Below are positions 24,863 through 57,279 of a stretch of 64,000 bases of DNA, piece after piece. Position 1 is the stretch's first letter. Every line of letters begins with the position of its first letter. The position numbers were made by a program, and so were the translations under genes. The DNA lies in the NCBI RefSeq assembly GCF_048128805.1, contig NC_135998.1, positions 30,158,492 to 30,222,491 on the forward strand, in the 5' to 3' direction. Source of the DNA: Centroberyx gerrardi (Eukaryota; Chordata; Actinopteri; Beryciformes; Berycidae). The notes beneath the pieces are model-generated. The model was not told where the DNA came from, searched no databases, and worked only from the letters and a program-made list of their open reading frames with translations.

Positions 24863-26909
24863 CTCTCCAGGCGGAGATGGAGCTGAAGTCGGACTCGAAC
24901 CAGCAGAACTACTGGATGATCCAGTACCAGAGGCTGCTGGACGCCAAGCCCCTTTCACTGCGCATGCAGGTAGAGACAGCAGCAGAAAGCTGTTCCTACC
25001 TCCACATTTCATTCAGGAGTCACTCTGCTGTTTTACTTTGACACAGTAAAGTTCCTCCAGTAAAAGAGAGGCTCACTATAGAGTCATCATGTCCTTCACT
25101 ACTTTCTGTGACTCATCATCATTTCACTCTCCTCATGAAGCTTTCCTCTCACCTGATCTTAGGAAGCAGGTGTGGAGAAAGAGTTGGTCAACCTGTTGTG
25201 TAAACTGTCCGCTCAGCACTACCTGCCCATTCTGGCTCACCATCGAGTGACAACAGAAGCCCTTCAGCACATGAACGCCTCTGACCTCAGCAAGGTCTGT
25301 CTGCACTGACTTGTTCACCAATTTACATGTTGTTGTTTATTGTACTGAATTAATTATTCATTTCTGTATATTGCATGACTGCTTTCTTTTAAGATTGGTT
25401 TACTATTTGTGAATGTGCAAAAGAATGAATATTATGAATAGATGAATAGATGAATAATATATGTAAATGAAGACTGATGGTCATTTCTCTGTTCCCAGCT
25501 GGGCATCAATGAGATGGGCGTCCAGAAAGCTCTTCTCAACTGGGCCAGGGAACGCCGTCCTGAAGGTCCGTCCCACACACACTTTTCCAGGGCGTTTATA
25601 TAGCAGTGTTTTGACATCAGTGCTAGAATGTGGATGAATGTGGTTGTTTCACATGTGGCGCTGTGACCTTTAGTTTTTGCCTTCCCTTCATGTTCTCCTG
25701 CTCCACTAGGAATCTGTAAGGCAGCCCAGCAGGAGGAAGAGGAGGCCGCTCCCTCAGCTCCATCCCCTCCATCCCCTCCATCGCCTCCCTACGCCTTGGC
25801 CGCCCAGACCCCCAGCCCGCCGCTCACCCCGGGGACCCCCGTCACCCCGGGGACCCCCGTCACCCCGGGGACCCCCGTCACCCCCTCGGCCCCCAGCCCC
25901 GTGGAGGGGCCGGGGAGCTCCGAGTGTGTGGTCTGCATGGAGACCGGGGTAAGACAAACACTCCAAGTAGACATTAGACTTACACAAATATGGGTTTTGA
26001 AGGTGGAGACCAATACTGATATTTTTGGACTGTAGCTGCCAGTAGCTGATATTTAGTGCTGATATTCACTGTCTTTAAATTTGACCGTTTACAGGCCAAA
26101 ACATTCCAAGCATTCAGAGTTTTATTCTTATCAGAGTGGAAAAGCCTCTGAAACGAGATTTAGATCAACATGGGACACTAAAACTCTCCACTGAAACCAG
26201 ACTGATGAAATATTGTTGAGTAAAATACCAGAGTGATTTCTCTGGTCAGCCAGCTGCAGAGGTTTGACCAAGTCAACTTTGCTCGAGTCCCAAGTCAGTC
26301 TCAAGTCTAAATGTAGATTAGCAAGTCAAGTCCAAGTCATTAATGTCAAGTCTCAAGTCTAAATGTAGAACAGCAAGTCAAGTCAGAACAAATCAAGAGT
26401 CCAGTATCAATTTAATATCTTAAAGAAAACGACATATCTAGGACTTTTCAATGCAATATGGTTTTAATAGGATAAAAACTTGGTAAGAGCATCATGAGTT
26501 TGATTTCTAGAATCAGTTTCAACTTCAATACATTCAATCATTCCATACAAATTCAGAAAACAGTCGTCTGCTGGAACAAATCTCATCACTTTCAATCTAA
26601 GTCATTTACACAAACACAAGATCTCAAGTCAAGACTTTAGAAACCTTTTCAAGTCATCAAAGTCAAGTCCAGTCTCAGGTCTTGTCTTCATGCGTCAAGT
26701 CAAGTCATGTGACTGCAGGCTCCACCTCTGCTACAACATGCACAAACCCCTCATGTCTCCAGTCTGACAGTATGGTCTCTTTTCAGTCTCAGGTCATCTT
26801 CCTGCCATGCGGTCATGTCTGCTGCTGTCAGATCTGCAGCGACGCTCTGCAGAACTGCCCTCTGTGCCGGAGCAACATCGCCCAGCGCATCCGCCTCTAC
26901 CACAACTAG
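12383..26909 (+). CDS. lrsam1: LRSAM1: LRR, coiled-coil, SAM and RING E3 ubiquitin ligase (24 coding exons)
   Basis: Coding exons: 12383-12454, 13185-13241, 14796-14840, 15194-15271, 15978-16046, 16141-16225, 16562-16683, 16775-16865, 16989-17098, 17562-17591, 18066-18188, 19635-19774, 19939-19983, 20380-20450, 21269-21368, 21504-21591, 21944-22018, 22674-22754, 23881-23976, 24871-24969, 25163-25294, 25499-25565, 25710-25948, 26787-26909. Phases agree throughout, giving 745 aa (human about 723). All introns are GT-AG. The order is leucine-rich repeats (about 30-175), long coiled coil (about 245-545), SAM (about 560-625), proline-rich linker with two PSAP motifs (640-643, 684-687) and C-terminal C3HC4 RING (ECVVCMETG...PCGHVCCCQ...CPLC, about 697-735). 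The family ubiquitinates the ESCRT-I subunit TSG101 through PSAP/PTAP motifs, acts in endosomal sorting and xenophagy, and is mutated in human Charcot-Marie-Tooth 2P. All key residues look intact. Donors after 21368, 22018 and 25565 are weak. Confidence 0.96.
12510..12906. repeat. Microsatellite cluster in lrsam1 intron
   Basis: (GT)n at about 12510-12561, a second (GT)n at about 12657-12731, and (AT)n at about 12862-12906, all in the intron after the first coding exon. The sequences before the two GT tracts' 3' sides ('taccagc...acctccattcc' type) are similar to each other, suggesting a local duplication of tract plus flank. ORFs reading V-C-V-C or T-H-T-H here are artefacts. Confidence 0.9.
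15411..15590 (-). mobile_element. tRNA-derived SINE, interrupted
   Basis: On the minus strand it starts GGTCCAGTGTAGCTC and continues with a pol III A-box-like 'tagctcaattggtagagc'. It ends in the familiar SINE/L2 tail 'ctgtaaggcactttggatta'. The B-box part is degraded, and a 52 bp hairpin is inserted in the middle. It lies in the lrsam1 intron before the exon at 15978. Confidence 0.7.
15501..15552. mobile_element. 52 bp hairpin (micro-MITE) nested in the SINE
   Basis: The ends are AGGGTAAATTATAC (15501-15514) and GTATAATTTGCCCT (15539-15552), inverse of each other with one mismatch. Between them is a short CTTCTGCGTC/CTTCCTCTTCTGC stretch. It interrupts the tRNA-like head of the surrounding SINE, so it inserted later. 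Its small size and lack of coding capacity fit a minimal MITE or an internal-deletion product. Confidence 0.5.
17345..17435. repeat. TATCG-rich MITE fragment
   Basis: The sequence has dense ATATCG/CGATAT motifs and ends 'gaatatcggcccaagcctag'. It resembles a common teleost element that carries 'atatcggcccag' at its end. Only a fragment is seen, and no terminal repeats were matched. Confidence 0.4.
18228..18868. mobile_element. 641 bp long-inverted-repeat element flanked by TTAA
   Basis: The left arm (about 18228-18443) and right arm (about 18653-18868) are inverse copies of about 215 bp with few mismatches. The left arm starts AGCACTATTCCACTTAG and the right arm ends CTAAGTGGAATATTGCT. TTAA tetranucleotides flank it at 18224-18227 and 18869-18872, the target site of piggyBac-type elements. 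The roughly 200 bp centre has no ORF. The element begins 39 bases after the lrsam1 donor that follows 18188. Confidence 0.8.
19188..19229. repeat. (GT)n microsatellite in lrsam1 intron
   Basis: Imperfect (GT)n interrupted by one GC, about 400 bases before the acceptor at 19634. Another intronic tract, (AT)n, lies at about 20125-20151. No function is evident. Confidence 0.85.
21672..21760 (-). mobile_element. SINE/L2 tail fragment
   Basis: The plus strand reads 'gcatttagcagacactctta' followed by 'tccagagtgac', the inverse of the standard fish SINE tail that ends with a 'ctggataagagcgtctgcta' motif. Only the 3' end is present. It lies in the lrsam1 intron between the exons ending at 21591 and starting at 21944. 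Confidence 0.55.
23824..23880 (+). promoter_or_regulatory. lrsam1: UG-repeat tract directly at the acceptor of lrsam1 coding exon 19
   Basis: (GT)n from about 23824 to 23866 runs into GCGTGCGTGCGTGCAG and the exon starts at 23881. No conventional polypyrimidine tract lies between repeat and AG. UG repeats beside a 3' splice site bind TDP-43/CELF proteins and modulate exon inclusion in other genes (CFTR exon 9 is the classic case). Exon 19 is 96 bp, so skipping would keep the frame. Confidence 0.55.
24811..24870 (+). promoter_or_regulatory. lrsam1: UG-repeat tract at the acceptor of lrsam1 coding exon 20
   Basis: (GT)n at about 24811-24858 is followed only by GCGTGCTCTCCAG before the exon at 24871. 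The pyrimidine stretch is five bases. Exon 20 is 99 bp and frame-neutral. The arrangement repeats that of the preceding exon. Confidence 0.55.
25748..25890 (+). other. lrsam1: LRSAM1 PSAP-flanked proline-rich linker with an 18 bp coding minisatellite
   Basis: Inside coding exon 23 the unit ACCCCGGGGACCCCCGTC is present three times, plus a partial unit, at about 25826-25882. It encodes T-P-G-T-P-V repeats between the two PSAP motifs (residues 640-643 and 684-687). PSAP/PTAP tetrapeptides bind the UEV domain of TSG101, the known LRSAM1 substrate. The spacing between motifs is therefore set by a repeat-prone tract. Confidence 0.75.
26262..26715. repeat. CAAGTC-rich interspersed repeat, copy 2 (longer)
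   Basis: The left part matches the copy at 3338-3490 ('gaccaagtcaactttgctcg', 'aaatgtagattagcaagtc', 'cattaatgtcaagtctcaag'). The right end is again CAAGTC-rich ('caagtcatcaaagtcaagtc' near 26650, 'gtcaagtcaagtcatgtgac' near 26696). It fills over half of the last lrsam1 intron and stops about 70 bases before the acceptor of the RING exon. Confidence 0.6.
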
Positions 26910-30159: not shown

Positions 30160-30276
30160 AACCTGATCACATAATACATTCTCAACATTATCACTCCATT
30201 CAATGGCCGTTATCAGTGGTTATCAGCCCCATAGATATGGGTTAGAAGGGGCCTACTACACCTCCTAGAAGGTTCA

Positions 30277-30948
30277 GAAGACAGACAGACAGAGAGACAG
30301 ACAGACAGACAGACAGAGAGGCAGACAGACAGACAGACAGAGAGGCAGACAGACAGAGAGACAGACAGACAGACAGAGAGACAGAGAGACAGAGAGGCAG
30401 ACAGAGAGACAGAGAGACAGACAGACAGACAGAGAGACAGAGAGGCAGACAGAGAGACAGAGAGGCAGACAGAGACAGGCAGACAGACAGACAGAGAGAC
30501 AGAGAGGCAGACAGAGAGACAGAGAGGCAGACAGAGACAGGCAGACAGACAGACAGAGAGACAGAGAGGCAGACAGAGAGACAGAGAGGCAGACAGAGAC
30601 AGGCAGACAGACAGACAGAGAGACAGACAGACAGACAGACAGAGAGGCAGACAGACAGAGAGACAGACAGACAGACAGAGAGACAGAGAGACAGAGAGGC
30701 AGACAGACAGACAGAGAGACAGACAGACAGACAGAGAGACAGAGAGACAGAGAGGCAGACAGAGAGACAGAGAGGCAGACAGAGACAGGCAGACAGACAG
30801 ACAGAGAGACAGACAGACAGACAGACAGAGAGGCAGACAGACAGAGAGACAGACAGACAGACAGAGAGACAGAGAGACAGAGAGGCAGACAGACAGACAG
30901 AGAGACAGACAGACAGAGAGACAGAGAGACAGACAGACAGACAGACAG
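30277..30948. repeat. ACAG/AGAG satellite-like array (~670 bp)
   Basis: The array is built from GACA, GAGA and GGCA tetramers. Higher-order blocks such as 'agagaggcagacagagacag' followed by 'gcagacagacagacagagag' recur about every 78 bp between about 30430 and 30610. A longer block seems duplicated between about 30600-30780 and 30780-30930. It is entirely purine-rich except for the C of each CAG, so one strand is strongly purine-biased. No ORF crosses it. Confidence 0.95.
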
Positions 30949-32012: not shown

Positions 32013-32832
32013 CTGGAACAACACATTTCCCACCGTTATCCTGACCTGACAAAACGTTATTCTCCAAAGTACACCTTACACCATTTTTCCTTAACATGCA
32101 TCGATACTAAATATATTTTTTTCACCTTTACCAATGTTAACGGACTTCGACGTTAGCTTGGAAGATAATCATCAAACTTATCAGGGTGTGTTGACCCAAA
32201 ATAAACTGTGGAGCAATAAGGACACTGAGACTTATTTAACTTAACTAACTCTAATCTAAATCTAACTGTTCAACAGATTTGTTAGCATGGTAATTTTAGT
32301 TTCTGATTTAGTATGAGCAGATTACTAAAACGTACGCTAGCTTGTGTTGACAGAATTTCGTCTAAAAGTGCAAATTGACACTCACAGAATAGTTTAATTT
32401 GCACCACAAATGATAAACCCGCCTTTCTCTGTAGGAACTCGCCCTCTTTTTCTCTCTCCTCTCTCTCTCTCTCTTTTGTTAGTTGAAATCCAGACTTTAT
32501 CTTTGGAAGAGACGTGAAAAAAAAAACAAATCTCAAACTAGGTCCACTAGCATGTACCGTTTGCCTGGAAGCGGCTGGACAAAACCATTGTGAATAAACA
32601 GGCGGGGGGAGACTACAGACGCTGGATCGTTAGGGTGCCTTTTACCAAAAAGGTAATAGAAAAAGAAAACACTAAATTTGTTAGTACTGATATTTCAATT
32701 AATATATTTTTTGTTGATGAAAGTTTCAATAACTGATTAATAAGATGATCTTACTAGTAGATTGGAGCATTGCCATTTAGGGGCTCTTGGAATCGTCCGA
32801 ACTTTGCAGCCACTTGTGGCGCCAGCTCATTG
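32013..32832. other. Intergenic stretch between the candidate minus-strand exon and the alternating-repeat gene
   Basis: There is a (CT)n/(TCTC) run near 32450-32475. No coding sequence is recognised. It would be a bidirectional upstream region if the minus-strand transcript is real. Confidence 0.3.
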
Positions 32833-32858
32833 TGACGTCACCTGGGCACGGTTTAAAA
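32833..32858 (+). promoter_or_regulatory. Compact core promoter: CRE palindrome plus TATA-like box
   Basis: TGACGTCA, a full CRE, lies at 32833-32840, and a TATA-like TTTAAAA at 32852-32858. Initiation would fall near 32880-32890, a few bases before the ATG at 32901. This argues that the ORF's upstream extension to an ATG at 32787 is promoter DNA, not coding. Confidence 0.5.
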
Positions 32859-32900
32859 GAGCGATCCGCAGCCAACAGAGTCATTTCACGATTTGCCACG

Positions 32901-35900
32901 ATGGAGGTCATGAAGATAAGACTTAGAAGCAGGATAATAAAGAGTAAGCAGGTCGAACCAAAGACAGAGCCGGTAAGAGCCCAGGTGCCCACAGCTGCCC
33001 ACAGCATATCAGCGCAGACAGCCAACCTGGAACCCCCTGTGGAGACTCAGACCCACGCACAGTCTAATCCCCAGATTGAGACCCGGGCTCCCGCCTGGGC
33101 CAATACCCAGGCCCACAATGATGCGCCTCACGCCGAGTCCGAGGACTGGGCCAAGGATTGGCCCACATTGGCCGAAGCCAACGTGAAGCCCCAGGCCCGG
33201 GCTCCGACTCAGGCCCAGACTCAGGATCAAGCCAAGGCCCAAACTCAGACCCAAGACAAGCCCCAGGACAAGGCCCAGGCTCAGGCCAAGGACCAGACTC
33301 AGGCCAAGGCCCAGGCTCAGCCCCAGGCCAAGGCTCAAACTCAGGCTGAAGCCCAGGCTCAACCTCAGGCCAAGGCCCAGGAACAGGCCAAGGCCCACAC
33401 TCAGGCCAAGGACCAGGCTCAGCCCCAGGCTCAGCCCCAGGCCAAGGCCCAAACTCAGACCCAGGACAAGGCCCAGGCTCAGGCCAAGGACCAGGTCAAG
33501 GCCCAACCCAAGGACCAGGCTCAGCCCCAGACTCAGCCCCAGACTCAGGCCAAGAACCAGGCTCAGCCTCAGGCCAAGGCCCAGACTCAAGCCAAGACCA
33601 AGGACCAGGCCATGACTAAGGCCAAGGCTCAGGATCAAGCCAAGGCCCAAACTCAGACCCAAGACAAGCCCCAGGACAAGGCCCAGGCTCAGGCCAAAGA
33701 CCAGGCTCAGGCTCAGCCCCAGGCCAAGGCCCAAACTCAGGCTGAAGCCCAGGCTCAGCCTCAGGCCAAGGCCCAGGAACAGGCCAAGGCCCACACTCAG
33801 GCCAAGGACCAGGCTCAGCCCCAGGCTCAGCCCCAGGCCAAGGCCCAAACTCAGACCCAGGACAAGGCCCAGGCCAAGGACCAGGTCAAGGCCCAACCCA
33901 AGGACCAGGCTCAGCCCCAGACTCAGCCCCAGACTCAGGCCAAGAACCAGGCTCAGCCTCAGGCCAAGGCCCAGACTCAAGCCAAGACCAAGGACCAGGC
34001 CATGACTAAGGCCAAGGCTCAGGATCAAGCCAAGGCCCAAACTCAGACCCAAGACAAGCCCCAGGACAAGGCCCAGGCTCAGGCCAAAGACCAGACTCAG
34101 GCTCAGCCCCAGGCCAAGGCCCAAACTCAGGCTGAAGCCCAGGCTCAGCCTCAGGCCAAGGCCCAGGAACAGGCCAAGGCCCACACTCAGGCCAAGGACC
34201 AGGCTCAGCCCCAGGCTCAGCCCCAGGCCAAGGCCCAAACTCAGACCCAGGACAAGGCCCAGGCCAAGGACCAGGCTCAGCCCCAGACTCAGCCCCAGAC
34301 TCAGGCCAAGAACCAGGCTCAGCCTCAGGCCAAGGCCCAGACTCAAGCCAAGACCAAGGACCAGGCCATGACTAAGGCCAAGGCTCAGGATCAAGCCAAG
34401 GCCCAAACTCAGACCCAAGACAAGCCCCAGGACAAGGCCCAGGCTCAGGCCAAAGACCAGACTCAGGCTCAGCCCCAGGCCAAGGCCCAAACTCAGGCTG
34501 AAGCCCAGGCTCAGCCTCAGGCCAAGGCCCAGGAACAGGCCAAGGCCCACACTCAGGCCAAGGACCAGGCTCAGCCCCAGGCTCAGCCCCAGGCCAAGGC
34601 CCAAACTCAGACCCAGGACAAGGCCCAGGCTCAGGCCAAGGACCAGGTCAAGGCCCAACCCAAGGCCCAGACCAAGGACCAGGCTCAGCCCCAGACTCAG
34701 GCCAAGAACCAGGCTCAGCCTCAGGCCAAGGCCCAGACTCAAGCCAAGACCAAGGACCAGGCCATGACTAAGGCCAAGGCTCAGGATCAAGCCAAGGCCC
34801 AAACTCAGACCCAAGACAAGGCCCAGACTCAGGCCAAAGCTAAGGACCAGGCCCAGACTCAGGCCAAGAACCAGGCCCAGACTCAGTCCAAGAACCAGGC
34901 CCAGACTCAGGCCAAGGCTCAGCCCCAGGCTAAGACTCAGACCCAGGCCAAGGCCCAGACTCAGGCCAAGGCCAAGAACCAGGCCCAGATTCAGGCCTGG
35001 GCCCATACTCAGGTCCGGCCCAGGCCTCAGGCCCAGAATTGGGACTGGACTCAAGCCTGTGGAAAGGACCGGACTCAGACTCAGGCCCGGGGCAAGGCTC
35101 GTACCCAGACTCAGGCCAAAGCCCAGGCTCAGCCCCAGGTTCAGCCCCAGGCCAAGGCCCAGATTGATGCACCCCTGGCCCAGTCCGAGGACTGGGCCAA
35201 GGATTGGCCCACATTGGCCGAATCCAATGTGATGACCCAGGCCCGGGCCCAGACCCGGACCCGGGCCAAGGCCCAAACTCAGGCTGAAGCCCAGGCTCAG
35301 CCTCAGGCCAAGGCCCAGACCCAGGCTCAGCCCCAGGCCAAGGCCCAAACTCAGGCTGAAGCCCAGGCTCAGCCTCAGGCCAAGGCCCAGGACCAGGCCA
35401 AGGCCCACACTCAGGCCAAGGCCCAAACTCAAGCTGAAGCCCAGGCTCAGCCTCAGGCCAAGGCCCAGGACCAGGCCAAGGCCCACACTCAGGCCAAGGA
35501 CCAGGCTCAGCCCCAGGCCAAGGCCCAAACTCAGACCCAGGTCAAGGCCCAACCCAAGGCCCAGACCAAGGACCAGGCTCAGACTCAAGCCAAGAACCAG
35601 GCCCAGACTCAGGCCAAGTCTCCACCACAGGCTAAGACTCAGACCCAGGCCAAGGCCCAGACTCAGGCTAAGGCTAAGGACCAGGCCCAGACTCAGGCCA
35701 AGAACCAGGCCCAGACTCAGTCCAAGAACCAGGCCCAGACTCAGGCCAAGGCTCAGCCCCAGGCTAAGACTCAGACCCAGGCCAAGGCCCAGACCCAGGC
35801 CAAGGCCAAGAACCAGGCCCAGATTCAGGCCTGGGCCCATACTCAGGTCCGGCCCAGGCCTCAGGCCCAGAATTGGGACTGGACTCAGACTCAGGCCCGG

Positions 35901-37253
35901 GGCAAGGCTCGTACCCAGACTCAGGCCAAAGCCCAGGCTCAGCCCCAGGCTCAGCCCCAGGCCAAGGCCCAGATTGATGCACCCCTGACCCAGTCCGAGG
36001 ACTGGGCCAAGGATTGGCCCACATTGGCCGAATCCAATGTGATGACCCAGGCCCGGGCCCAGACCTGGACCTGGGCCCAGACCCAGACCCGGGCCCAGGC
36101 TCAGGATCAGACCAAGGCCCAGGTGCAGCCCCAGGCCAAGGCCCAGACTCAGACCCAGGACAAGGCCCAGGCTCAGGCCAAGGCCCAACCCAAGGCCCAG
36201 ACCAAGGACCAGGCTCAGCCCCAGACTCAGGCCAAGGACCAGGCTCAGCCCCAGACTCAGGCCAAGAACCAGGCTCAGCCTCAGGCCAAGGCCCAGACTC
36301 AAGCCAAGACCAAGGACCAGGCCATGACTAAGGCCAAGGCTCAGCCACAGGCTAAGACTCAGACCCAGGCCAAGGCCCAGACTCAGGCCAAGGCTCAGGC
36401 CCAGGCCCAGACTCAGGCCAAGAACCAGGCCCAGACTCAGGCCAGGAACCAGGCCCAGACCCGGGCCCAGGCTCAGGATCAGACCAAGGCCCAGGTTCAG
36501 CCCCAGGCCAAGGCCCAGACTCAGACCCAGGACAAGGCCCAGCCTAAGGCCAAGGACCAGGCTCAGCCCCAGGCCAAGGCCCAGACTCAGGCCCAGACAC
36601 AGGCCAAGGCCCAGGCAAAGGTGGAAAAGGAAGCTCTTCACCTGGAAATTGAGGAGTTAAAACAAATGCTCCACCAAGTGGAGAAGTGCATTAACATCCA
36701 GGCTGCACAGAAAGATGAGGCAATCATCCTTGGACTGCAGCTTCAACTTGTGGAGTTGAACAAAAGCGAGAAGGAGGCTCTCTTCACAACAGAGGAGTTG
36801 AAGGAGGCTCTCCAAAAGGAGAAAGAGGAGGCCCAGAAGGTGCTGGAGAAGCACCTGGCCTCCCAGCTGGCTCCAAAGGAGCGAAGTGATGAAAAGAACA
36901 AGATCACAGAGACCCTGAAGCATGCTGAGCAGCAGCTGGAGAGCCACCTCCTCCAGTGGCAGGAGGAGCGGACCTGTCTTGTCAGGGATAAAAACAAGAG
37001 CCAGCAGGCCCTGGAGGAGAAGGAGCTGGAGTGGAACAAGATGAAGACCAGCATGGAGGACAAGCTTGCCAATCTGGAGCGTGAGATCTGCAGGGAGAGA
37101 ACGGGGGAAAAGTCCAAGAAAAGCAGCTGGCTAAGAAGAATCATTGGTGCCCTGACCCCAACCTGCAAGAAGAGGAAGAAGGAGAAGAACATGGAGTCCA
37201 CTTCCAACAAGGACTCCAACAAATTCCTCCAGTTCTTCAAGCGAAGGGCCTGA
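32901..37253 (+). CDS. Unrecognised intronless gene: ~1,450-aa protein with an alternating [A/T/P/D/N]-[Q/K] tract and C-terminal coiled coil
   Basis: The frame is open from 32787, but I choose the ATG at 32901: Kozak GCCACG-ATG-G, and core-promoter motifs lie between the two ATGs. Residues 1-100 are non-repetitive (start MEVMKIRLRSRIIKSKQ, basic). Residues about 102-1240 alternate almost perfectly: every second residue is Q or K, the others mostly A, T, P, D or N. Three modules containing EDWAKDWPTLAE interrupt it, as do two NWDWTQ-containing blocks. Residues about 1241-1400 are unique sequence with heptad-like leucines (IEELKQMLHQVEK, LHLEIEE), predicted coiled coil. The tail is basic (KKRKKEK near 1421, ending FFKRRA). 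No signal peptide or membrane segment is seen. I know no family with this architecture. It could be a fast-evolving structural or scaffold protein. A non-coding satellite with a fortuitous frame is the main alternative, but the unique C-terminus argues against it. Confidence 0.7.
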   Translation: MEVMKIRLRSRIIKSKQVEPKTEPVRAQVPTAAHSISAQTANLEPPVETQTHAQSNPQIETRAPAWANTQAHNDAPHAESEDWAKDWPTLAEANVKPQARAPTQAQTQDQAKAQTQTQDKPQDKAQAQAKDQTQAKAQAQPQAKAQTQAEAQAQPQAKAQEQAKAHTQAKDQAQPQAQPQAKAQTQTQDKAQAQAKDQVKAQPKDQAQPQTQPQTQAKNQAQPQAKAQTQAKTKDQAMTKAKAQDQAKAQTQTQDKPQDKAQAQAKDQAQAQPQAKAQTQAEAQAQPQAKAQEQAKAHTQAKDQAQPQAQPQAKAQTQTQDKAQAKDQVKAQPKDQAQPQTQPQTQAKNQAQPQAKAQTQAKTKDQAMTKAKAQDQAKAQTQTQDKPQDKAQAQAKDQTQAQPQAKAQTQAEAQAQPQAKAQEQAKAHTQAKDQAQPQAQPQAKAQTQTQDKAQAKDQAQPQTQPQTQAKNQAQPQAKAQTQAKTKDQAMTKAKAQDQAKAQTQTQDKPQDKAQAQAKDQTQAQPQAKAQTQAEAQAQPQAKAQEQAKAHTQAKDQAQPQAQPQAKAQTQTQDKAQAQAKDQVKAQPKAQTKDQAQPQTQAKNQAQPQAKAQTQAKTKDQAMTKAKAQDQAKAQTQTQDKAQTQAKAKDQAQTQAKNQAQTQSKNQAQTQAKAQPQAKTQTQAKAQTQAKAKNQAQIQAWAHTQVRPRPQAQNWDWTQACGKDRTQTQARGKARTQTQAKAQAQPQVQPQAKAQIDAPLAQSEDWAKDWPTLAESNVMTQARAQTRTRAKAQTQAEAQAQPQAKAQTQAQPQAKAQTQAEAQAQPQAKAQDQAKAHTQAKAQTQAEAQAQPQAKAQDQAKAHTQAKDQAQPQAKAQTQTQVKAQPKAQTKDQAQTQAKNQAQTQAKSPPQAKTQTQAKAQTQAKAKDQAQTQAKNQAQTQSKNQAQTQAKAQPQAKTQTQAKAQTQAKAKNQAQIQAWAHTQVRPRPQAQNWDWTQTQARGKARTQTQAKAQAQPQAQPQAKAQIDAPLTQSEDWAKDWPTLAESNVMTQARAQTWTWAQTQTRAQAQDQTKAQVQPQAKAQTQTQDKAQAQAKAQPKAQTKDQAQPQTQAKDQAQPQTQAKNQAQPQAKAQTQAKTKDQAMTKAKAQPQAKTQTQAKAQTQAKAQAQAQTQAKNQAQTQARNQAQTRAQAQDQTKAQVQPQAKAQTQTQDKAQPKAKDQAQPQAKAQTQAQTQAKAQAKVEKEALHLEIEELKQMLHQVEKCINIQAAQKDEAIILGLQLQLVELNKSEKEALFTTEELKEALQKEKEEAQKVLEKHLASQLAPKERSDEKNKITETLKHAEQQLESHLLQWQEERTCLVRDKNKSQQALEEKELEWNKMKTSMEDKLANLEREICRERTGEKSKKSSWLRRIIGALTPTCKKRKKEKNMESTSNKDSNKFLQFFKRRA
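33205..36620 (+). repeat. In-frame hexanucleotide (CAGGCC-type) coding array with higher-order repeats
   Basis: The base unit is 6 bp (variants of CAG-GCC, AAG-GCC, CAG-ACT, CAG-GCT, CAG-CCC). Higher-order copies can be anchored on 'gatcaagccaaggcccaaac' at 33225, 33633, 34023, 34389 and 34785, giving spacings of 408, 390, 366 and 396 bp, all multiples of 6. A further segment of 810 bp repeats from the module at 35166 to that at 35976. The opposite strand is also open for long stretches (Leu-Gly repeats) because the reverse of CAG-GCC has no stops. Confidence 0.9.
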
Positions 37254-38341
37254 GCACACTGACACCTGTGCTCACCCCTGACACCCCCCACTCACCATCA
37301 AATTCCCACAAACCCCTTTCCCTACCTATTTTTCCCTCAATATAATTTGATCTAAAATCATGCGCTGGCTGTATAGTTGTATTTCTATAGAGAATTGTAA
37401 GTTCCACTGAGTCAACAGTGTATGCATAACTAAACTATCAATTGTTTGTGTGGTTTTGATATTTAAATGCTGTTTAAAAAAATGAAGCAAGTATAGAAAA
37501 GGAAGATATGGAGAGATATTGCAGTGTGGGATGTGATTCATCAATCCTAATTGTAATCAAATGGTAGTATGTTTGAAACTGTCTCTGCCTTTACAGTCAT
37601 CTATTGGCACTACTACAGAAGGAAATGGAGATCAACCTGTATGTGCTCTAAAGTACACACACACACACACACACATGCACACACACACACACATACATCA
37701 TTTCAGAGTAGCCTGATTTTTCTATTTTTGTCCCTGTCTTTTCAAATATGGAAGACCTAAAATGACTTATCCGTTTATTGGATTATTATTATTCATTAAA
37801 TGTAATGTCTTGGTGTGTGTTGTTGCCTAATGGAATCCTCTTCTGTAGAAATGGATGTACAGAAGAGGATTCCATTGGATTTCTGAACGAATTATTTAAA
37901 ATTAGTTAAGTTGAGAAATTTCTGTAATTTACAGCCATGCAGGGACTATTTGAATTATTTTCTAAAATGCTGCAGTGAAAATATTGGAGGATTGTTACTG
38001 TGTGAGACTTGGTGACATTTTTTTATTTTTTTACATATAATGTTTTTATTGCGTTCATATGGTTAATGGTATCAGATTGTGATTTTCAAGCAAGCAAAAC
38101 AGCAAGAAAGCGTTTTTTCTGCCTTTTTAAAAACAGTTTTCACTCGCTAATTATTGCAGTGTTTCTCAACCAGAATAAAATAGAAAGCCATTAATAACCC
38201 GGTGTTAACATGAGCGGGCCCGCGTATCTCAATATGCCCAAACTATGACAATAAAGTTATTTTGACTGGGTGGGTGAATAGCCTACCTGTAAAATAACAC
38301 GTACTACCCCTTTAAATCTGTCTGACATCGTGCACACTGAA
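37254..38341 (+). other. 3' flank / probable 3' UTR of the alternating-repeat gene
   Basis: AATAAA signals lie at 38174-38179 and 38250-38255; either would give a 3' UTR near 1 kb. The stretch also holds (CA)n at about 37659-37694 and a perfect hairpin at 37829-37876. No other gene is seen. Confidence 0.4.
37829..37876. repeat. Perfect 19 bp stem hairpin, 10 nt loop
   Basis: AATGGAATCCTCTTCTGTA (37829-37847) is exactly inverse to 37858-37876. The stem core 'acagaagaggatt' resembles the terminal repeat ACGGAAGAGGATT of the MITEs at 7579 and 8537, so this is probably a minimal derivative of that family. It is too short for a typical microRNA precursor. Confidence 0.6.
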
Positions 38342-38424
38342 GTCAGGATGGCCGAGCGGTCTAAGGCGCTGCGTTCAGGTCGCAGTCTCCTCTGGAGGCG
38401 TGGGTTCGAATCCCACTTCTGACA
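38342..38424 (+). tRNA. tRNA-Leu (anticodon CAG)
   Basis: An 83 nt type II tRNA without intron. The acceptor stem GTCAGGA pairs with TTCTGAC, with one G-T pair, and the discriminator is A. The A-box lies in 'tggccgagcggtctaaggcg'. The anticodon stem CTGCG/CGCAG holds the loop TTCAGGT with CAG at 38376-38378. A long variable arm follows (tctcctctggaggcg), then the B-box GGTTCGAATCC at 38403-38413. CCA is not encoded, as expected in eukaryotes. All stems pair, so it looks functional. It lies alone between two protein genes on the same strand. Confidence 0.97.
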
Positions 38425-38436: not shown

Positions 38437-50095
<11,659 letters not shown>

Positions 50096-50928: not shown

Positions 50929-51625
50929 CACTACATGGCCAGAAGAATGTGGACACCTGCTCATCGAACATCTCATTCCAAAATCATGGGCATTAATATG
51001 GAGTTGTTCCCCCCTTTGCTGCTATAACTGCCTCCACTCTTCTGGGAAGGCTTTCCACTATGGAACATTGCTGCGGGGATTTGCTTCTATTCAGCCACAA
51101 GAGCATTAGTGAGGTCGGGCATTGATGTTGGGCGATTCAGTCTGGCTCCAACTCATCCCAAAGGTGTTGGATGGGGTTGAGTTCAAGGCTCTGTGCAGGC
51201 CGGTCAAGTTCTTCCACACCGATCTCAACAAACCATTTCTGTATGGACCTCGCTTTGTCATGCTGAAACAGGAAAGGGCCTTCCCCAAACTGTTGCCATA
51301 AAGTTGGAAGCAGACAATCCTCTAGAACGTCATTGTATGCTGTAGCGTTAAGATTTCCCTTCACTGGAACTAAGGGGCCTGAACCTAGAAAAACAGCTCC
51401 ACACCATTATTCCTCCTCTATCAAACTTTACAGTTGGCACTATGCATTTGGGCAGGTAGCGTTCTCCTGGCATCCGCCAAACCCAGATTTGTCCGTCAGA
51501 CTGCCAGATGGTAAAGCGTGATTCGTCACTCCAGAGAACCACTACAGCAACACTTGGCGTTGCGTATGGTGCGGCTGCTCGGCCATAGAAAACCATTTCA
51601 TGAAGCTCCTGACAAACAGTTCTTG
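50929..51625 (-). mobile_element. Tc1-like (Tc1/mariner) transposon remnant
   Basis: The left end CACTACATGGCCAGAAG follows a TA at 50927-50928, the Tc1 target. The minus strand encodes broken transposase pieces: 'FVEIGVEELDRPAQSLELNP', 'IQHLWDELE' and, further upstream in the gene, '[20 protein letters not shown]'. The HTH-coding part and the other inverted repeat are missing. The DDE-type C-terminal half is interrupted by frameshifts. The copy is dead, cut near 51625. Confidence 0.9.
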
Positions 51626-51661
51626 TTTTGTTTGTTTGTTTGTATACAAACAAACAAAACA
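51626..51661. repeat. TTTG/CAAA palindrome at the Tc1/LINE junction
   Basis: 'tttgtttgtatacaaacaaa' is a perfect palindrome centred on GTATAC. The arms extend further with a 4-base slip. It lies exactly where the Tc1 remnant ends and the LINE remnant starts. Confidence 0.6.
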
Positions 51662-51662
51662 A

Positions 51663-51972
51663 GTACAGTATATTGCTTGTTTATACATTGCTGGTATATT
51701 GCTTGTATATTGTGTTTCTGTATATGTCCAAGCAGAAGCATATATAAATTGAACAAAAGAGGACCAAGGATTGAACCCTGTGGAACCCCACATGTCCCAG
51801 TGACTTTATCAGATACAAAATTTTCAATAGAGACAAAGAAATTGCTGTCTAGCAGGTAGGTCCTGAACCACTTTAGAACAGGACTTGACAGTCCTACCCA
51901 ATTTTTTAATCTGTCTAGTAAGATCTCATGATCCACAGTGTCCAATGCAGCATGGTCATTTATTGTTAACAA
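51663..51972 (-). mobile_element. L2/Rex1-like LINE reverse-transcriptase fragment
   Basis: The minus strand encodes 'DTVDHEILLDRLKNWVGL', 'VLKWFRTYLLDSNFFVSI' and 'CGVPQGSILGPLLFNLYML'. These are consecutive blocks of a non-LTR reverse transcriptase up to just before the catalytic YADD motif, which is missing. It is cut at both ends. Confidence 0.88.
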
Positions 51973-51974
51973 TA

Positions 51975-52310
51975 TGCCATAAAAGATGTAATCACATATG
52001 TGTATCTAAAAATGTCATTTATATGATTACCTGCCCCTGTGGGATGGCCTATAGAGGCAAAACCTCCCGAGCTCTTGAACACAAAAACAGTATTGACAGA
52101 AATGACCGTACCTATCCAGTGGCAGTCCATTTTAATGATTTAAAACATGACTTGAAGACATTTCACTTTAGTGGCAGACTTCCAGAGAGGGGAGGTAACA
52201 CAGAGAGCCTGTTAAAAAAAAAATGTGAAGCCTATTGAATTTTTACACTTAAAATGATCCAACCAAGGGGTATGAATGATGAATTTCTCCTCATTTTAAT
52301 GCTGTAGACT
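51975..52310 (+). mobile_element. Penelope-like element fragment: C-terminal GIY-YIG endonuclease remnant
   Basis: The plus strand encodes 'VIYMITCPCGMAYRGKTSRA', then 'DRTYPVAVHF', 'FHFSGRLPERGGNTESLLKK', 'KCEAY', a TGA in place of a conserved Trp codon, and 'IFTLKMIQPRGMNDEF'. This order (VIY...C-P-C-G...Y-x-G-K-T-R, then RGG, then E-A-W-I) is typical of the GIY-YIG domain ending Penelope-like retroelements. The reverse transcriptase part is absent. The premature stop and truncation mark it as dead. Confidence 0.75.
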
Positions 52311-55248: not shown

Positions 55249-57279
55249 CTATCTGAGGGCCAGTGTGTGCACTTGGTAGATCTCCTTTGGGAAGTCCATT
55301 TGTTGCTCCTCGTGGACGATGCGCAGGCCCGCCCGGCCCACCAGGCTGCGGACGATCTTCAGGTCGCGGCAGACGCTGCTGTCCACCTCGTCCGGCACCA
55401 CGCCCTCGTACGCCACATTGTCCTTGATGACGACGAGGCCGTTGGGCCGCAGGGCGCTTTGGCAGCGCCGCAGGAACTCCACCAGGTGGTCGTCTGTGAG
55501 GTGGCCTGAAGGGGAAAGGGGGAGGAGAGGTGTCACATCTAGAACATCCCGAGCCTTTGGTCTTACTCTTTGACCTCCACTTAGCACGGATTATCTGAAT
55601 CCAAATGCAGGTACTCACTGGCAAAGTTAATGTAGGCCAGGGTTTTTAACCATGTGCCATAGTGACCCAACAGTCTGCAGGTCTTCATTCCTACCAAACA
55701 CTACAGCAGCTTGTTTCACTGATTAAGACACCTTCAAACAGAGGAACCAATACGTGAAATCAGCTGCTGTTGTGATTGGTAGGAGGGTCATTCCGTGTCA
55801 ACTCAACCAGAGCTCGGCGGCTCAAACTTTTGATTTTGAAAAAGAAAAATAGTGGAGCTGCTACCTTTCTCAGTATCGCTTTTAGACCCCTAAACTTGCT
55901 CCAAATCATAGGCGAAAATTATCATTTTGACCCTCACTACAAAATTGGGGGAAACTCAGTAAATAATGATCAGTGTGAGTTTTAATATTTGGGCTTTCTT
56001 CATCATTTATGTATATCTTCCACCAGGAGAAAAATGATCAAAATCAAAAGTTTGAGCCGGCGAAGTTTCAGAAATTTGGTTGATTTGACACGGAATGACC
56101 CAGGAATGAAAACCTGTACACTCTCAGGTCACAATTGCACATGATGGCTCCCATGAATGATCCAGCAATTTCGAAAATGCTCGAGTACAGCAGTGAGATA
56201 CATCATTCCCCCAAGTTTCATCAAAATCGGATGGCCTGGCGACCATTGAGCCAGACTCACCAATGACCCACTGGATCCAGATGACGTCGTAGCGTCCGTC
56301 CTCCGGTAAAAAGTCCTGCAGGCCGCTGCAGAAGTAGTTGCCCACCCGCTTGCCCTCCTCGCCCAGGTAGGTTTTGGCCTTGTCCAGGAACTCCTGGGTC
56401 ACATCCACCAGGTCCACAGTGTGGAAGAGAGGCAGCAGCAAGCGCTTGGTGATCCGCCCGATACCGGCTCCACAGTCCAGAGCGCAGGCTGTGCCCGTCT
56501 TCCCCTCACCTTCCTTTATTGGAAAGATGATAAACATGAAAAGAGTTAACTAGTCGAAAAAGCTGTAGAATTAGGTGTTAGATTTAAGCAACTCCTAATT
56601 CAAGTTTTGTCTTCTACACAACTGAGGAACAAGGCTATTAAGGTTCAACCAATAAGGGCTTTTGGCGGCTGATACCGATATTTTGTCATCTTTAAATTTG
56701 AACTTTCTTCATGCAAAATTAAAAAATATTACAAGGATTCAGTGTTTCCCCCAGAATTTTACTCTCATCAGGGTGGAAGAGCCTCTGAAACAGAATTTAG
56801 ACCACGGGACACTAACACTCTAACACTATAATAATAATAACACTACTACTACTACTAATAATAACATATTCATGCAGAATTTTGTAGAATCCAAACAAAA
56901 TGTGCCATTATCAATTCAGGTTAAGGGCTTCCCATGGACAACCAGTATAGGATTCATTCTACAATAAATATGTAATCAATCAACCTGCATCATATCCATC
57001 ATATCAGAGGTGGACCACACTGACTGGACCAGATCCCATTTTTAGTAAAAGGCCAACATCAACTTGATATAAACTAAATCCCAGTGTTTCTTTTCTTTGC
57101 TTGAGCTGGCTGGCATCTCAAAAAGAGTTTCTTACGCCAAGGAACTTCTGCAGGAAAGCCTTGGATCCGTTGAGGTCGATGTTGGAGATGCTGCCGTAGC
57201 CTCCCAGCATGCCGTCCACGGTGGAGGGAACCTCCCTCCAGTAGCCCTCCGCATTGGAGTAGAAGCTGGCCTCACTCAT
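55249..57279 (-). CDS. ntmt1: NTMT1: N-terminal Xaa-Pro-Lys N-methyltransferase 1 (3 coding exons)
   Basis: Coding exons in gene order: 57279-57136, 56513-56261, 55505-55249. Phases agree, giving 217 aa (human 223). The enzyme transfers methyl groups from S-adenosylmethionine to the alpha-amino group of proteins that start X-Pro-Lys after Met removal (RCC1, CENP-A and others), in the nucleus. Visible family features: FYSNAEGYWREVPSTVDGML near the N-terminus, the SAM-binding loop LDCGAGIGRITKRLLLPLF at 60-78, DLVDVTQEFLDKA, YDVIWIQWVIGHLTDDHL, and the C-terminal EIYQVHTLALR. Start: an in-frame upstream ATG exists only in intron sequence. The ATG at 57279 lies one base after an acceptor (CTGACAG|G) and matches the family. 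Intron 2 holds a palindromic transposon (55785-56101). No broken residue is seen. Confidence 0.96.
55785..56101. mobile_element. 317 bp MITE with long inverted repeats in ntmt1 intron 2
   Basis: The ends GGGTCATTCCGTGTCAA and TTGACACGGAATGACCC are perfect inverses, and similarity continues through 'tcaacca'. A second inverted pair, 'ggctcaaacttttgattttg', lies further in on both sides. AGGA flanks both ends (55781-55784 and 56102-56105), a possible 4 bp target duplication. No ORF. Confidence 0.75.

Follow-up and report, generated by a model that had tools for sequence, protein, structure and literature searches.

Low-complexity coiled-coil proteins, to which automatic annotation gives names such as trichohyalin-like or golgin-like, are rich in Q, E and K, helical and built with internal repeats. 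Among fish gene families, the finTRIMs are characterized by RING, B-box and B30.2 domains. The finTRIM expansions of teleosts are reported as those of a large, fast-diversifying family (PMC2657112). The texim genes of the platyfish are multicopy, testis-expressed and Helitron-associated, and encode an SGNH hydrolase (PMC4021074). In hexanucleotide repeats of the C9orf72 type, a 6-nt unit gives rise to a dipeptide polymer.

Here we analyse a 64,000-nucleotide stretch of the genome of Centroberyx gerrardi (hereafter the window), which holds an open frame whose long middle part mostly alternates between Q or K and some other residue. In all likelihood this frame is a real protein gene; it has dozens of scattered relatives in the same genome. 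On balance, we consider it probable that it codes for protein and belongs to a multicopy family that is dispersed, evolves fast and is mostly intronless, and that its middle has grown by in-frame amplification of hexanucleotides. Like the trichohyalin-like and golgin-like proteins, the family is rich in Q, E and K, predicted to be helical and endowed with internal repeats. It differs from these proteins, and from the finTRIMs, in that no Pfam-A model scored above its cut-off for the N- and C-terminal parts of the window protein or for five paralogue proteins or parts of them. Furthermore, the window C-terminus found no match at E ≤ 1 in a PDB sequence search; a match between the paralogue L013 and Pcdhac2 (E 0.017) was taken as chance. 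The Pfam result agrees with an earlier note on this DNA, whose author, a model, knew of no described family with such a pattern. In a literature search limited to titles and the starts of abstracts, no paper on this family was found, and searches of viral contigs and plasmids returned no relatives. Like the texim genes, the family is a multicopy fish family with relatives across the genome, and its copies seem to be associated with a DNA transposon; the differences are that texim genes are marked by the SGNH hydrolase, Helitrons and testis expression (PMC4021074), whereas the present family, described here from genomic DNA, has basic-tailed proteins predicted to be helical, and hAT-like ends in one subfamily. 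Like the C9orf72-type repeats it turns a 6-nt unit into a polymer of residue pairs but, unlike them, its array is ATG-initiated in one frame, heterogeneous in its residues and common to paralogues. What was a lone curious open frame is now a testable family, with dozens of paralogues, natural variants in array length, cis sequence in common and selection that can be measured. Should the family be expressed, it would be a system for asking whether the growth of an in-frame minisatellite in a protein spacer is tolerated or selected, and whether a DNA transposon aided the spread of a gene under purifying selection.

The frame (32901-37253) runs from an ATG at 32901 to a TGA at 37251-37253, comprising 1450 codons with no internal stop. 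It is unbroken from the start context of the family to its stop, as are most of the intact paralogues inspected in genomic DNA. The parts of the gene are summarized in Table 1.

Table 1. Features of the gene and its flanks, in window coordinates.
Feature	Position	Strand	Remarks
Start-proximal promoter region and short 5'UTR	32780..32900	+	MAFFT alignment with 12 paralogues
N-terminal head	32901..33200	+	Residues 1-100; basic start; DNA alignment with paralogues
SEDWAKDWPTLAE peptide, copy 1	33138..33176	+	Residues 80-92, in head
Alternating X-[Q/K] array	33201..36620	+	Residues 101-1240 (1140 residues)
SEDWAKDWPTLAE peptide, copy 2	35184..35222	+	Residues 762-774, in array
SEDWAKDWPTLAE peptide, copy 3	35994..36032	+	Residues 1032-1044, in array
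Family C-terminal region	36621..37250	+	Predicted to form long helices; present in dozens of paralogues
Short predicted helix SWLRRIIGAL	37125..37154	+	Within basic stretches; family form RSWLRRLIDAL
3'UTR and downstream DNA homologous to paralogues	37254..37650	+	Alignment of 19 rows

The array contains 356 Q and 147 K, and their partners are mostly A, T, P, D and N. Its alternation, which the earlier note had called strict, is strong but imperfect: adjacent residues switch between Q/K and another residue at 88.2% of steps (49% expected for the same letters in random order), the longest perfect run is 77 residues, and the pattern is interrupted where E, M or H is substituted and where islands rich in Trp and Arg occur. 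Residues 108-627 are organised in higher-order units, each 122-136 residues long, a second duplicated block lies at residues 651-785 and 929-1055, and a period-6 signal was found by TRF across 33190-36616. Over the array, stops number 0, 10 and 22 in the three forward frames and 0, 153 and 17 in the three reverse frames. The openness of the coding frame is by itself weak proof, because the codon-register antisense frame is likewise open (1215 aa) and CAG/GCC-type hexamers are without stops. A single change would turn any of the 503 Q and K codons of the array into TAG or TAA, and none is a stop, a count in which the codons are not independent, many being recent duplicates; C-to-T variants are nevertheless common in the third position of codons for A, T, P and D. 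A noncoding satellite would be expected to have no frame preference; here the stops are frame-specific and the C-terminal homology is in frame. The view that this is a real gene and not a satellite is supported, with stops in four of the six array frames and none in the coding frame.

The head carries a stretch, AQV..AH..ANLEPPVE, that aligns with AQVSPAHR..RAYLEPPVER of the paralogues. The head aligns with paralogues at the DNA level, and a protein search at E ≤ 0.01 matched the window locus alone, so the window head is strongly diverged. Upstream, the start-proximal sequence is common to 13 aligned rows (the window and 12 paralogues), with L018 differing over most of the stretch. We take its motifs to be a CTTGGAATC box from 32780, a CRE-like TGACGTCA at 32833-32840, and TTTAAAAGAGCG from 32852, followed by CAGAGTCATTTCA. 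That promoter motifs lie near the start, as had been claimed, is supported by their recurrence in paralogues: a TATA-like box occurs in 5 of the 13 rows (by eye) and the exact TGACGTCA in 2. A role connected with CREM or the testis, drawn from the CRE alone, was dropped because TGA[C/T]GTCA is present in just 4 of 13 rows. Downstream, AATAAA stands at the homologous site in 14 of 19 rows (by eye) and is absent from the window, L009, L022, L023 and L028; the window has AATATA instead (37339-37344), and so has L009.

When its own genome (779 Mb, 278 contigs) was searched with the C-terminal 213 aa of the window protein, at least 60 match rows were obtained at E ≤ 0.001. After rows of one locus were merged by hand, these represent at least about 53 places on 20 contigs, the window counted, and many of the matches lie in open frames. 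Thirty paralogues were fetched for comparison. In several of them an open frame of some 380-1850 codons spans the match with no intron inside it; others are truncated or frame-broken. The C-terminal identity of the window protein is 51-59% to six of eight aligned paralogues and 45-48% to the other two. L009, the copy closest to the window gene, has lost its 5' part, and the frames of L010 and L017 are broken; intact frames are found in the window copy and in several other members. A typical head reads MEAT..K..R.R.KK..AQVSPAHR..GRRAYLEPPxER and a typical tail KKRSWLRRLIDALTPxRKEKKKK. The family is dispersed, has start-proximal and 3'UTR sequence in common and, as judged from genomic DNA, is mostly intronless. 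In three members of what we call subfamily III (L029, L031 and C24:6.20 Mb), the first ~36 codons are set apart by about 1143, 1143 and 363 nt, respectively, distances that were obtained by subtraction. This split, near a CAG|GTAAGC-like site, is possibly an intron gained by insertion.

The C-terminal end had been described as a unique coiled coil. Its helical character is upheld by an AlphaFold2 prediction from the single window sequence, with helices at residues 2-55, 60-85 and 88-163 of the C-terminus (mean pLDDT 75, pTM 0.36); its uniqueness is not, given the matches in its own genome. Further short helices are predicted at SWLRRIIGAL and at the extreme end, and residues 183-199 have pLDDT below 50. 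Heptad periodicity is not significant in the window (P 0.20) or in L013 (P 0.10), and is significant in L018 (P 0.007). The last 50 residues of the window protein include 16 K/R and 4 D/E. In the alignments, SWLRRIIGAL, with its family form RSWLRRLIDAL, is the most recognisable motif of the family.

Arrays recur among the relatives. Of the 30 fetched paralogues, 11 have open X-[Q/K] arrays, 111 to 1460 residues long as delimited here, namely L011 and ten members of subfamily III (L028-L034, C17, C6 and C20:16.66), and L010, L017 and L043 have array stretches in broken frames; in the remaining 16, alternation is at most 0.58 in any open 60-residue stretch. Across the 12 open arrays measured, the window counted, alternation is 0.76-0.91. 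K falls nearly always in the Q register (147/147 in the window, 276/292 in L011), A almost exclusively in the other register, and D/E mostly in that other register as well (60/73 in the window, 218/228 in L011, and weakest in L031 with 69/102). In the related arrays most residues are A, Q, E, K or V, and the frames of subfamily III range from 468 to 981 codons as array-length variants. A tree built from the C-terminal DNA of 27 rows places the window with L009, L010 and L017 (96/89) and unites L028-L034 in one clade (100/100), while deep branches are weak. On this tree, which holds 9 of the 12 arrays, the presence of arrays needs three changes when the truncated L009 is counted as array-bearing. 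Members that lack long arrays also have short QxQ stretches, so an ancestral seed may have grown in several lineages. In view of these stretches, the weak deep branches and the fact that the tree holds only 9 of the 12 arrays, a strictly convergent origin of the arrays was considered and dropped.

The reading that we favour may be put as follows. The family plan would consist of a basic head with the conserved segment AQVSPAHR..AYLEPP, a variable middle, a helical and probably coiled-coil C-terminal region, and a basic amphipathic tail. In the window copy, the middle would have reached 1140 residues as codon pairs of 6 nt, and larger units too, were duplicated in frame again and again. The X-[Q/K] alternation would then be a by-product of the hexamer, with selection against stops and frameshifts keeping the frame. 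The C-terminal helices may oligomerise the protein, the basic tail may act as an anchor on a membrane, RNA, DNA or other acidic partner, and the array may serve as a spacer of variable length in which amide and basic residues occupy one register and small and acidic residues the other.

Selection on the family can be measured outside the array. For seven copies of subfamily III, which lie on six contigs, pN/pS pooled over 21 non-independent pairs is 0.17 in the N-terminal and 0.32 in the C-terminal part. Omega for the parts outside the array is 0.25, in an alignment from which the final 20 residues of L027 were omitted because of an apparent frameshift. Array-bearing proteins of subfamily III are under purifying selection outside the array. 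The family overall evolves fast: omega is 0.50 on 22 rows, broken copies among them, and pairwise dN/dS is 0.23-0.71 in 22 of 24 pairs. The two exceptions are L012 with the window, which was ignored as it comprises 18 codons out of frame, and the window with L009, for which dN/dS is 3.0 (12 nonsynonymous changes and 1 synonymous). Omega for the window, L009 and L010 together is 0.65.

For the window copy itself, the lines of evidence diverge: the tests on the frame and, strictly read, on the array point to constraint, and the C-terminal substitutions do not. The main rival to our reading is that the family is real and the window copy is decaying, that is, a paralogue that was functional until recently, has come under relaxed selection and still has an unbroken frame. 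With changes polarised by L010 and L017, nine C-terminal changes in 559 nt are derived in the window since its split from L009 (8 nonsynonymous, 1 synonymous), compared with four derived in L009; eight of the nine fall within 37042-37247, and two of them are R-to-C replacements in or near the basic tail. It is for this excess of nonsynonymous change, the R-to-C pair and the AATATA that we grant decay a substantial minority share of our belief, and the truncated or frame-broken state of the siblings L009, L010 and L017 fits it too. Against decay stands the intact frame. Noncoding divergence between the window and L009 is 7/379 nt in the 3' flank, with a misaligned CA repeat excluded, and 16/536 nt; taking half of the L009 divergence for each lineage and indels as 10% of substitutions, neutrality predicts 3.5-3.9 stops and ~4.4 frameshifts over 4350 nt. 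None was observed, and the probability of no stop is 0.02-0.03. The variable columns of the window array units also favour synonymous change (4 synonymous versus 1 nonsynonymous, Fisher P 0.007), with P 0.013 when the second block is included and P 0.12 when ambiguously aligned columns are.

How the copies came to be dispersed is a separate matter. Plain retrocopies were ruled out because homology continues on both sides of the coding part, in noncoding DNA common to the copies. Copies of subfamily III lie in units of about 3.3-3.9 kb with common sharp ends (e.g., L028, L033, L034 and L042). The 5' end, TAGATGACATTAG, is present in six of seven loci compared and missing in C17, and the 3' end, CCACCACTG, in all five loci whose 3' end was reached. 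From the shape of this 3' end, and not from a library, we take it to be hAT-like. Units of the hAT type have terminal inverted repeats and an 8-bp target-site duplication. At the 5' boundary of the subfamily III units no inverted repeat matching the hAT-like 3' end was found. Direct repeats of 7 bp abut both unit ends at C14:14.29 Mb and C20:13.85 Mb, two of the five cases; at C15, C19 and C20:16.66 flanking repeats are absent or weak, and 3.3% of random pairs of stretches reach a 7-base match. The 32-nt end has 67 exact matches in the genome, of which, by hand count, 7 adjoin family members. Because one subfamily lies in 3-4 kb units with a hAT-like end, transposon-aided spread is possible.

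A stronger version holds that these are cargo genes without a host function, whose proteins help, or ride with, a hAT-like mobile unit. The shared ends, the direct repeats at two of five copies and the family members adjoining the 32-nt end speak for this version, as does the fish precedent of texim genes and Helitrons (PMC4021074). We nevertheless think it unlikely: the 64-kb window has no match to the 20-nt hAT-like end with up to three mismatches allowed, three of the five copies are without clear target-site repeats, no transposase was seen on inspection of the units, L029 and L031 carry different upstream sequence, and the hAT label comes from the shape of the end. A broader scenario, in which units of 3-4 kb with hAT-like ends spread helical, basic-tailed genes and several branches separately grew a two-register polymer under protein-level selection, making this a mobile family that goes on producing long alternating polyampholytes, perhaps with a role in the germline or in host-parasite interplay, strikes us as similarly improbable. 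Some observations on individual loci may be recorded here. An inverted repeat flanks L021 (283-972 and 9212-9901, 690 nt, 100% complementary, C7:28.73-28.74 Mb), its arms 8.2 kb apart and one of them running to the edge of the sequence retrieved. The idea that L021 is flanked by LTR-like terminal repeats was dropped, as these match the hAT-like end. Sequence upstream of the gene in L025 (2765-3267) matches, at 92% identity, that directly downstream of the gene in L024 (6392-6880), an arrangement that looks as if it were circularly permuted or had once been in tandem.

As for the meaning of the alternation, the earlier note had proposed an extended, fibrous or gel-forming polyelectrolyte with Q and K on one face of a strand. 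The separation of the Q/K register from small and acidic residues in all 12 arrays agrees with this, and strand geometry would indeed put Q and K on one face. A repeat unit of 6 nt, however, is enough to produce alternation, and no selection for a strand is needed. The related arrays are rich in residues that favour helix, namely A, Q, E and K; no secretion signal was seen on inspection of the basic N-terminus. We therefore regard the polyelectrolyte as decidedly unlikely, and the simplest account of the alternation is that it came about as a side effect of 6-nt amplification and that selection held the frame open. That the array is a hexanucleotide satellite, open by chance and fused to the remnant of a coiled-coil gene, would suit the period-6 signal and the open antisense frame but is highly improbable in the face of the stops in four of the other frames, the 11 paralogues with open arrays of other sequence (in the seven of these that were tested, the parts outside the array evolve under purifying selection) and the Q/K codons, non-independent as they are, of which none has mutated to the stop one step away.

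The gene had been placed between lrsam1 and ndor1. One side of this placement is consistent with the domains found, with flavodoxin and FAD-binding exons (Pfam) at 41272-41490 and 44208-44567 that presumably belong to NDOR1; for lrsam1, the one stretch checked, 25667-26032, gave no Pfam match. Farther along, a Methyltransf_PK exon (Pfam) at 56124-56546 fits what we assume to be NTMT1. A tRNA-Leu (CAG) gene at 38342-38424 is the sole find of the tRNA and Rfam scans, and the homology between the window and L009 ends ~10 nt before it. The window also contains a reverse transcriptase fragment on the minus strand (RVT_1, E 9e-8, 51598-52002) and, at 30275-30948, a CAGA-type tandem array of 674 bp in which several frames are open.
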